Shown in pieces: positions 27,927 to 31,032 of a stretch of DNA of 41,477 nt. Every line of letters starts with the position of its first letter. Positions within the stretch are counted from its first letter, which is position 1. This stretch comes from Bacteroidales bacterium (GTDB lineage Bacteria; Bacteroidota; Bacteroidia; Bacteroidales; UBA7960), in assembly GCA_003560165.1 (NCBI GenBank), contig PWJC01000160.1, positions 1-41,477 on the forward strand. The letters run 5' to 3'. The notes beneath the pieces were generated by a model, which was not told the origin of the DNA, did no database searches, and was given only the letters and a program-made list of their open reading frames with translations. The position numbers were made by a program, and so were the translations under genes.

Positions 27927-28418
27927 ATGAAGTGCATCGGACTGCTCTCCGACACCCATGGCTACCTGCACCCCGAAATCCCCCGCGTTTTTGCCCAATG
28001 CGACGAGATCTGGCATGCCGGCGATTTCGGAGACATTTCGGTGGCACACAGGCTCAGGGCCCTGAAACCCCTCAGGGGGGTCTTTGGTAATATCGACGGA
28101 AGGGAAATACGCTGGGAGTTCCCCGAAATGCTCCGCTTCGATTACGGGGGGCTGCAGGTAATAATGACCCATACCGGCGGGTATCCGGGCAATTACGCCC
28201 CCGGCATCGCAAACATGCTGAAAAACCATTCTCCCGCACTGTTCATCAGCGGGCATTCACACATCCTGAAGGTGATGTACGACAAAAAACTGGGGCTGCT
28301 ACACATCAATCCGGGCGCAGCGGGCCGATCGGGCTTCCACAAGACGATCACCATGATGCGGCTTTTCATCAGCGGACCGGTGATGAAAGACCTGGAGATC
28401 ATCGAATTTAAAAGATAG
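27927..28418 (+). CDS. YfcE-type metallophosphoesterase
   Basis: IGLLSDTHGYLHPEI...CDEIWHAGDFGD...GVFGNIDGREIR...ISGHSHILKVMYDKKLGLLHINPGAAGRSG. Confidence 0.9.
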   Translation: MKCIGLLSDTHGYLHPEIPRVFAQCDEIWHAGDFGDISVAHRLRALKPLRGVFGNIDGREIRWEFPEMLRFDYGGLQVIMTHTGGYPGNYAPGIANMLKNHSPALFISGHSHILKVMYDKKLGLLHINPGAAGRSGFHKTITMMRLFISGPVMKDLEIIEFKR

Positions 28419-28424
28419 GCCGTT

Positions 28425-30248
28425 TTGCAAACCCTGCTTCATACCCCCTTGCGCATGGTCTGGCTCAAAGCGGCCGTCATGGGCAGCTTCTGGGCATCCA
28501 TGGAGATCATCATGGGCAGCTTCCTTCACAACCTGAGGATCCCCTTTGCCGGCACCATACTGGCCTGCGTTGCCGTATGGCTCATGGTGGCCTTTGTGCA
28601 GGTATGGAAGGAAGACGGGCTTCTGTGGAGAGCCGGGCTGGTGGCAGCGCTGATGAAATCGCTGTCGCCCAGTGCCGTGATCCTCGGACCCATGTTGGGT
28701 ATCTTCACCGAGGCCCTGCTGATGAACCTGGCGGTAGTTCTTCTGGGAAGAAGGCCGCTCGCCTACCTGATAGGTGGCGGGTTGGCCGTATTGAGCACCC
28801 TGGGGCATAAAATACTGAACCTGATCGTACTCTATGGCTTTGACCTGATCAGGGTGGCAGATGCAGTGTTCCGGGTTTCGGCCGAAGCGGAATTCCTTCC
28901 CCGCACAAGCCTGAGGGACGCCGTCTTCCTGCTCGCAGGCCTGTATATTGCAGCCGGCCTGGTAGCAGCCCTGGCCGGTTATGCTTCGGGCAAAGGCTTT
29001 TGGAGGCGGGGCAAAAAAACGGAAGCCGGGTTTGGGGGCTTCCACCGCCTGGATACTGCAAGTGTTTCGGAACAAAAGACCAGTGAATTGTTTCGACGCA
29101 GCCGGGCAGACAACTATGCAGCTCCCTTGCTTTTTCTCAACCTGGGAGCCGTTGTGCTGGCCCTGTTACTGATCAATGGTCCTTATCCACTTGCTGCCGC
29201 CCTGTTTTCGGCTGCCTACCTGGTTTTCTGTTTTTTCAGGTACCGCCGGGCCGTGCACAGGATCAGGAAATGGTCTTTCTGGATCCCTTTTGTGTTGATC
29301 ACCCTTGCTGCAGCCTTGCTGCTGGATGGCATCGGCAATGGCTGGTCGTTGAGTACCACCGGCTTACTCACCGGTTTGCGGATGAACGCCAGGGCGCTAA
29401 TTGTCCTTACCGGGTTTACCGCCATCAGCACCGAAATGAAAAACCCTGCCATCAAACTCATCCTCTACAACAAGGGATTTGCCAGTTTGTACCAGGCACT
29501 CAGGCTTTCCTTCTCTGCCCTGCCCGCCTTGCTCGATTACCTGTCGGATCAAAAAGGAAAAATCCGGACGTGGAGGCCCGATTTCGCCGGCATCGCCGCG
29601 GCCGCCGAAACCATGCTGGAGGCCTTTAAAAAAGAGGATGTACAGAAATCGCCTCTGATCATTGTCAGCGGCCACATCGGACAGGGAAAAACAAGTTTTG
29701 CCCGCAGCATGGCAGAACATCTGAACAAAATGGAGTTACCCACCGGAGGCTTCCTTTCGCCGGGCAAACACAACGAGAAAGGGGAGCGGACCGGATTCTG
29801 CCTTCAACCCCTGAACGGGGAAAAACCCGTTTTGCTTTGCAGCATTCACGGAAAAAGGGAGTGGCCAAAGGGAGGAAAGTATTACTTCAATCCATCGGCG
29901 CTCCAAAAGGGAAGGCAGTTGCTGCTGCCCGGCAGCCTGGCCGGGAAGTCCGTTGTGGTCATCGATGAAGTGGGGCCACTGGAGATCAACGACAGGGGCT
30001 GGGCCCCCGCAATCGAAACATTGTTGCGTAGCAGGCAAATGGTCCATTGCTGGGTGGTCCGCCTCTCCCTGGCCAGGAAAATGGCCAGAAAATGGGATGT
30101 GGGAAGCGTGTACCTTTTCGATGCCGGGAACGACCACCCGGAAGAAGCAGCCCGCCTGGCAGCGCTCCTTGCACGGACAACTGACCGGCCCCCTGGAAAA
30201 TATCCGGCAACGGGGGTTACGGAAACCCATCAGGCGGAAGGATGGTGA
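28425..30248 (+). CDS. Multi-domain membrane protein: ECF S-component-like region + EcfT/CbiQ-like region + C-terminal THEP1/DUF2478-like P-loop NTPase
   Basis: Residues ~10-190 and ~225-375 are TM-rich; C-terminus has Walker A IIVSGHIGQGKTSFARSMAEHL and Walker B VVVIDEVGPLEI with no ABC signature. Starts at TTG 28425 or ATG 28455. Confidence 0.65.
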   Translation: MQTLLHTPLRMVWLKAAVMGSFWASMEIIMGSFLHNLRIPFAGTILACVAVWLMVAFVQVWKEDGLLWRAGLVAALMKSLSPSAVILGPMLGIFTEALLMNLAVVLLGRRPLAYLIGGGLAVLSTLGHKILNLIVLYGFDLIRVADAVFRVSAEAEFLPRTSLRDAVFLLAGLYIAAGLVAALAGYASGKGFWRRGKKTEAGFGGFHRLDTASVSEQKTSELFRRSRADNYAAPLLFLNLGAVVLALLLINGPYPLAAALFSAAYLVFCFFRYRRAVHRIRKWSFWIPFVLITLAAALLLDGIGNGWSLSTTGLLTGLRMNARALIVLTGFTAISTEMKNPAIKLILYNKGFASLYQALRLSFSALPALLDYLSDQKGKIRTWRPDFAGIAAAAETMLEAFKKEDVQKSPLIIVSGHIGQGKTSFARSMAEHLNKMELPTGGFLSPGKHNEKGERTGFCLQPLNGEKPVLLCSIHGKREWPKGGKYYFNPSALQKGRQLLLPGSLAGKSVVVIDEVGPLEINDRGWAPAIETLLRSRQMVHCWVVRLSLARKMARKWDVGSVYLFDAGNDHPEEAARLAALLARTTDRPPGKYPATGVTETHQAEGW

Positions 30249-31032
30249 TCTTTTGTGCGCAATAACGGAACAGGTGATATCCCGACCCCCCTTCGGCCAC
30301 AAGATCGAGCAGCCGTCCGGGGTCGGTGATCCTGGTGGCACCGATCATGTGCACGCCCCGGCTAAAAAGCACATCGGGCACCACACCGGCCGAAGGCCCT
30401 GCAACAAGCAGCTCCTGCACGGCTTTGGTCAGGGTTAACAAACGATCGAGGCTGTGGTTGGCCAGGGTCATTCCCGTAAAGATGACCGCGTCGGCTTTGG
30501 AGATCACTGCCGATTCCTGTCCGGCAGGCACGTACAGCGAAGCATATTCGGGGGCAAGGGCGGATTTGTCGAGCTCCACCACCGACAAGTGCTGACCGGC
30601 CGAAAGCAAAACCGGTATATAGGAATGAAAGGCGCCGACCATGGCAATATGCCTGGGCCGGCTGAGGTCGAGCAGGGAGATGGGGTCGGTGTTTTCCAGC
30701 ACCTTATGCCCGGTATGTTCCAGCAGGCCTGCAGAAAGCGCATTGATCACCGCCAGCCTCAGGGGTGCTTTCAGGCGGCTGCCGCCGCTGGTTTCTAAAA
30801 GTTCATCAAGCCCGATGCCTCTGATGTTCAGCGGGCTGAACCTCCCATAATCCCTGCCTTCCCTGGGTTTTGGCCCTGGCTGGGGCAATGTGGTGCTGCA
30901 AACCCCGGCCGAGCCGTCCGAGAGGACCACCGCAGTGAGGTGGATGCCGATGCGCAGCCCGGCAATGCTCAGCTCATGCAGCCTCACACCCAGCCGGGCA
31001 CGCAGATAGCCGATGGTTTCTTCAATGAGCAT
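30217..31032 (-). CDS. DUF364/DUF4213 family protein (putative heavy-metal chelation, Rossmann-like)
   Basis: Two-part layout: N-term LRIGIHLTAVVLSDGSAGVCSTT..., C-term ISLLDLSRPRHIAMVGAFHSYIPVL...LSVVELDKS...ADAVIFTGMTLANHSLDRLL...AGPSAGVVPDVLFSRGVHMIGATRITDP. Confidence 0.75.
   Translation of the reverse strand: MLIEETIGYLRARLGVRLHELSIAGLRIGIHLTAVVLSDGSAGVCSTTLPQPGPKPREGRDYGRFSPLNIRGIGLDELLETSGGSRLKAPLRLAVINALSAGLLEHTGHKVLENTDPISLLDLSRPRHIAMVGAFHSYIPVLLSAGQHLSVVELDKSALAPEYASLYVPAGQESAVISKADAVIFTGMTLANHSLDRLLTLTKAVQELLVAGPSAGVVPDVLFSRGVHMIGATRITDPGRLLDLVAEGGSGYHLFRYCAQKITILPPDGFP

Follow-up and report, generated by a model that had tools for sequence, protein, structure and literature searches.

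The window analysed here is a stretch of 41,477 nucleotides (contig PWJC01000160.1, assembly GCA_003560165.1) from a Bacteroidales bacterium, referred to below as G000. It encodes a protein in which two membrane blocks are followed by an NTPase domain in one chain. We wanted to know whether such a protein is a transporter, what it could carry and what its NTPase could contribute. A first-pass annotation, made from the DNA letters, had read it as a single-chain transporter composed of an ECF S-component-like block, an EcfT-like block and a THEP1-like NTPase.

The fused reading frame and its NTPase domain

The 607-aa ORF and the two Walker motifs described in the first-pass annotation were confirmed, and the ORF contains no internal stop. 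The features of the locus are as follows.

27927–28418, + strand: YfcE/Metallophos_2 phosphoesterase, 6 bp upstream of the ORF
28425–30248, + strand: complete ORF of 607 aa with a TTG start, comprising an S-like membrane block, a second membrane block and a THEP1 NTPase; the fusion is conserved in relatives
28449–29033, + strand: Block 1 (residues 9–203), ECF S-component-like, predicted six to seven helices (AF2 models, fold match to 5edl, conservation)
29106–29648, + strand: Block 2 (residues 228–408), second membrane domain, weakly EcfT/CbiQ-like (AF2 model, conservation, profile comparisons)
29649–30194, + strand: THEP1-type P-loop NTPase domain (residues 409–590; Pfam PF03266, Foldseek 2i3b)
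29670–29696, + strand: Walker A, GHIGQGKTS (residues 416–424; pattern present in 50/51 fused relatives)
29964–29987, + strand: Walker B, DEVGPLEI (residues 514–521; DExG present in 51/51 fused relatives)
30217–31032, − strand: DUF4213/DUF364 protein (PF04016, E = 4.2e-36), convergent with the ORF, the 3' ends overlapping by 32 bp

A frameshift, which the first-pass annotation had named as a possible artefact, was ruled out, as was a chance fusion. In a set made up of G000 and 60 related genomes, 37 of the 61 contain a match to the window protein, and we confirmed 408 encoded relatives in contigs of the GTDB species set. Among 295 genomes of the order Bacteroidales with completeness of at least 90%, the membrane block was present in 94. 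Close relatives could be aligned with the window protein from the first residues onward, and a non-ATG start codon was also observed in two of them (L052 and L053). Of the best 80 relatives listed, most were from Bacteroidales and a few from Saprospiraceae or Chlorobiota. Most of the genomes analysed are MAGs; near-complete and single-contig cases agree with the rest. A scan for promoters and terminators gave no signals above those of shuffled sequences.

The fusion was found across Bacteroidales, and in many genomes the same parts are encoded by separate genes, one for a membrane protein of ~400 aa and one for an NTPase of ~190 aa. In several genomes, for example G227, the two genes overlap or touch. 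That the parts are naturally both split and fused supports their functional partnership. The single-chain transporter proposed by the first-pass annotation is plausible; in many genomes, however, there are two chains.

We also observed a shorter arrangement, in which an S-block-only relative of 229 aa and an NTPase_1 gene share an operon with XdhC-MobA, CoxS and CoxL (L064:5225-6564 and L239; G050). This operon of G050 has no second membrane block, and the same S-like gene together with an XDH operon is present in G157.

The C-terminal domain of the window protein was assigned to NTPase_1 (PF03266, E = 9.2e-16; 58.6 bits, curated cut-off 23.9) and was matched by Foldseek to human NTPCR (2i3b, E = 2.1e-5, probability 1.00), which supports the earlier reading of this domain as THEP1-type. 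It shares the fold of the THEP1/NTPase_1 proteins, such as human NTPCR and Aquifex aq_1292 (1ye8), and, as in those, both Walker motifs are intact. The THEP1 proteins described so far are soluble and stand alone, whereas the present NTPase is either part of one chain with a membrane protein or the product of a neighbouring gene. We know of no transport role for THEP1.

A stand-alone THEP1 relative (L048:5953-6546) matched DUF2478 (E = 1.2e-5) and, weakly, MobB (E = 0.008), a hint that a single group of NTPases linked to molybdenum may comprise NTPase_1, DUF2478 and MobB.

The membrane blocks compared with ECF transporters

We used AF2 models of the window protein (pLDDT 86.4) and of a natural membrane-only homologue from G227 (pLDDT 91.8). 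Among the best 50 Foldseek matches of the membrane-only model, the ECF S component 5edl, which we take to be YkoE, was the sole one to combine a high probability with a TM-score above 0.5. Because the Foldseek E-value of this match was weak (0.68), the claim of an S-like fold rests on its TM-score (TMt 0.52 over ~190 alignment columns) and probability (0.98). MFS alignments that ranked above 5edl had TM-scores near 0.15 and were regarded as noise. When the whole protein was searched against the PDB, the matches beyond the NTPase were ABC and MFS alignments at TM about 0.1–0.15, which we judged spurious. Neither membrane block gave a match when its sequence profile was searched against the PDB. 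The S-component-like character that the first-pass annotation gave to the first block is tentatively supported, by the predicted fold only.

Block 1 has thirteen invariant residues (W13, W23, E27, G31, H35, N36, P40, K78, P82, S83, P89, M90 and G178). Mean column identity was 54% in the S block versus 38% in block 2, and this higher conservation is consistent with one substrate. The invariant E27, H35, N36, K78, P82 and S83 are what would be expected if there were one anionic substrate.

In the model of block 2 a long bent helix, in which R323 is invariant and P367 nearly so, runs into the NTPase. Of the proposed EcfT-like nature of this block there was a hint, the CbiQ profile matching 6 of 56 members with a best E of 0.006. 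Comparison of block 2 by hhalign with seven local EcfT sequences gave no significant match (0.7%), and the EcfT coupling motif AR[GSE] was present in 4 of 68 relatives. We did not find CbiQ in the host genome G000.

The family may resemble ECF transporters in its first block, whose model superposes on an S component, and in a possible T block fused behind it; variation between split and fused genes is a further likeness. It differs from the ECF vitamin transporters in having no detectable sequence relation to the S component, and from ECF transporters in general in lacking the EcfT coupling motif and in having a single THEP1 NTPase instead of ABC ATPases. As the first-pass annotation had noted for the window protein, the ABC signature is absent; LSGG was found neither in this protein nor in any of the 68 relatives, and no ABC gene adjoins the ORF in the window.

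Co-occurrence with molybdoenzymes and cofactor synthesis

We observed a strong functional association of the family with the use of molybdenum cofactor (Moco). Across the 295 genomes, 66 had both the family and MoaC, 28 the family only, 64 MoaC only and 137 neither, so that the two co-occurred above expectation (odds ratio = 5.0, p = 8e-10). As 66 carriers also have MoaC, the family protein does not serve only organisms that lack synthesis of the cofactor.

The family is also a marker of genomes in which XDH-type molybdoenzymes occur without cofactor synthesis. XDH-family enzymes were present in 16 of the 28 MoaC-negative genomes with the family and in 3 of the 137 without it (p = 3.4e-12). 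The exceptions were G075, in which a contig end cuts off the membrane block after its first residues, with the NTPase and MobA alongside; G157, with the 229-aa S-like variant in its XDH operon, as in G050; and G250, which has a weak XDH-family match, 5% contamination and neither MoaC nor the family. The 28 MoaC-negative carriers span about 20 families, and in the tree of the protein family their members are intermixed with those from MoaC-positive genomes, with at least 13 changes of state.

Other steps of the pathway were missing as well. MoaA was absent in 27 of the 28 MoaC-negative carriers and present in all MoaC-positive controls tested except G189, while MoeA was absent in 22 of the 28. 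Carriers with MoeA and without MoaC include G056, G067, G160, G230 and G277. G253 had counted as MoaC-negative, but MoaA and MoeA lie on a single contig there, and the absence of MoaC probably reflects a gap in the assembly. MobA remains adjacent to the family gene in several MoaC-negative carriers. The G227 genome is a single contig estimated to be 99% complete; a stretch of 15 kb holds its membrane gene, its NTPase gene and two XDH loci, and no MoaC, MoeA or MoaA was found in the genome.

The orphan XDH enzymes sampled have an intact GGxFG motif and an intact KA[VI]GEPP or related GxGE motif, of which the GEPP type is presumably the carrier of the catalytic glutamate; in one XDH-family enzyme of G075, GGxFG alone was found. 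Twelve of the 28 MoaC-negative carriers had no XDH-family match. A DMSO-reductase-type enzyme is known in three of these twelve, G043, G056 and G241, and the others may contradict the idea of an importer set out below.

Of seven MoaC-positive Bacteroidales tested, six (G000, G041, G060, G189, G298 and G306) gave no match to MoaE (PF02391). The same search detects MoaE in 11 control genomes, and most of the MoaE-negative genomes have MoaA and MoeA; either the MPT synthase is very divergent, or a different enzyme performs this step. As MoaE escaped detection even in MoaC-positive Bacteroidales, it could not be used to separate import of cPMP from import of MPT.

The window's own organism has MoaA, MoaC, MoeA and WtpBC. 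In G000 we observed a cluster (L139, G000:C10:20000-36000) that encodes a short MoaA (266 aa), MoaC, a MOSC-MogA fusion and MoeA, as well as a ThiF/MoeB-like protein and a WtpBC-like transporter.

Gene surroundings and the candidate substrate

Flanks of 5 kb or more were available for 111 loci, some duplicate records included. In 48 of these loci a molybdenum gene lay within 4 kb of the family gene. The commonest neighbour was MobA, which in many loci overlaps the family gene or lies within ~300 bp of it. In the window's genus a DmsABC-like operon with MobA is found near the family gene; MoeA and MogA are neighbours in G056, and XDH and XdhC-MobA in G213, G227 and G050. TonB receptors and DUF364 were also among the neighbours. 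The YfcE/Metallophos_2 gene is a neighbour in 5 loci, all from the clade of the window, and its position is probably incidental.

These surroundings bear on several readings of the protein. An ordinary vitamin transporter of ECF type, for example for a thiamin precursor, would account for 5edl, an ECF S component, being the closest fold, and would make the molybdenum genes a coincidence. We consider this very improbable, as the association with molybdenum is strong, we did not notice vitamin genes nearby, and no Rfam riboswitch family matched in the window region or in the loci of 11 relatives.

The frequency of MobA, often overlapping, together with the XdhC-MobA operons and the matches of the stand-alone NTPase to MobB and DUF2478, could also be explained if the protein were not a transporter at all. 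It would then be a membrane-anchored maturation or insertion factor that acts after Mo-MPT has formed, with a MobB-like NTPase beside MobA. We regard this as rather unlikely. It leaves unexplained where genomes lacking MoaA, MoaC and MoeA would obtain their cofactor, and an S-component-like fold with invariant polar residues both within and close to its helices would be odd for a pure anchor.

In many relatives DUF364 is a same-strand operon partner whose gene overlaps that of the family. Because of its structure and gene surroundings, DUF364 was suggested to make or act on a flavin or pterin derivative, or else to chelate metals (PMC2954201). The family could accordingly belong, with DUF364, to an alternative route of Moco synthesis, so that the seemingly orphan genomes would make the cofactor de novo; unrecognised Moco genes in such organisms were considered in PMC6147048. 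We find this improbable, since an S-like membrane protein is not obvious as an enzyme, many orphan loci have no DUF364, and many carriers have normal MoaA and MoaC.

The substrate could instead be molybdate or tungstate, with the family as an ECF-like alternative to ModABC/WtpABC. Like those systems, the family is tied to molybdenum use; its gene surroundings fit such a role, relatives of DUF364 occur near metal ABC transporters (PMC2954201), and some carriers have no other recognised molybdenum uptake, no strong match to ModB/WtpB being found in the five MoaC-negative carriers searched. The family is, however, unrelated to them in sequence, with no Pfam or NCBIfam match for parts of the ModABC/WtpABC type (BPD-type permease, ABC ATPase or binding protein), and G000 and many relatives have both the family protein and WtpBC. 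Import of molybdate also does not explain why XDH carriers lack MoaA, MoaC and often MoeA, and the adjacent TonB receptors suggest a substrate too big for porins. We hold this reading to be unlikely.

Taken together, the genomic evidence points to molybdenum cofactor, rather than a vitamin or bare molybdate, as the substrate. From it we infer transport, its direction, the substrate and the energising role of the NTPase. Our best explanation, to which we give about an even chance, is that the window protein is an inner-membrane importer of Mo-molybdopterin (Moco) or molybdopterin that is energised or gated by its THEP1 domain. Since MobA and XdhC are kept while MoaA, MoaC, MoeA and the molybdenum ABC transporter are lost, the imported compound should be one that MoeA produces and MobA uses, namely Mo-molybdopterin. 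Points against an importer include the high lability of free Moco (PMC9793310), the 66 carriers that also have MoaC, the MoaC-negative carriers without an XDH-family match, the weak XDH-family match of G250 and the weak likeness of block 2 to EcfT.

The importer would work as follows. Passage of the large substrate through the outer membrane would, in some loci, be the task of an adjacent TonB receptor. The S-like first block would bind it, and the second membrane block would serve as a scaffold for transport or coupling. The THEP1 NTPase, whether in the same chain or as a separate partner, would hydrolyse NTP to power or gate uptake, a task that in ECF transporters falls to the pair of ABC ATPases. 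The substrate would most likely be Mo-molybdopterin, or metal-free molybdopterin where MoeA/MogA are kept. MobA would then add the nucleotide, and the cofactor would pass to enzymes of the DMSO-reductase or xanthine-dehydrogenase type. The organism of the window would use the importer to scavenge cofactor alongside de novo synthesis.

Several hundred sequenced prokaryotes are reported to have molybdoenzymes with no complete route to Moco and mostly no molybdenum transporter, an unexplained class for which new synthesis genes or Mo-free enzymes were suggested (PMC6147048). The MoaC-negative carriers with XDH belong to this class; unlike that study, we propose an importer for salvage and name a candidate gene. 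C. elegans obtains Moco from the bacteria on which it feeds, by a membrane-crossing step that is unknown (PMC9793310). Neither this fusion family nor an importer of Moco in bacteria was found described in the literature searched, from which most subscription papers are absent. More tentatively, and somewhat short of an even chance, this would be the first dedicated bacterial importer of Moco or MPT, with an ECF-like substrate-binding domain and a THEP1 NTPase instead of ABC ATPases, and bacteria with orphan molybdoenzymes would live on the cofactor of their neighbours.

Such an importer, if true, would explain how molybdenum enzymes occur in some bacteria without genes for cofactor synthesis. 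A gene family that accompanies orphan molybdoenzymes makes salvage and cross-feeding of Moco directly testable. If a THEP1 NTPase does act as the motor or gate of a membrane transporter, uptake would be energised in a new way, and the THEP1 family would gain a physiological role.
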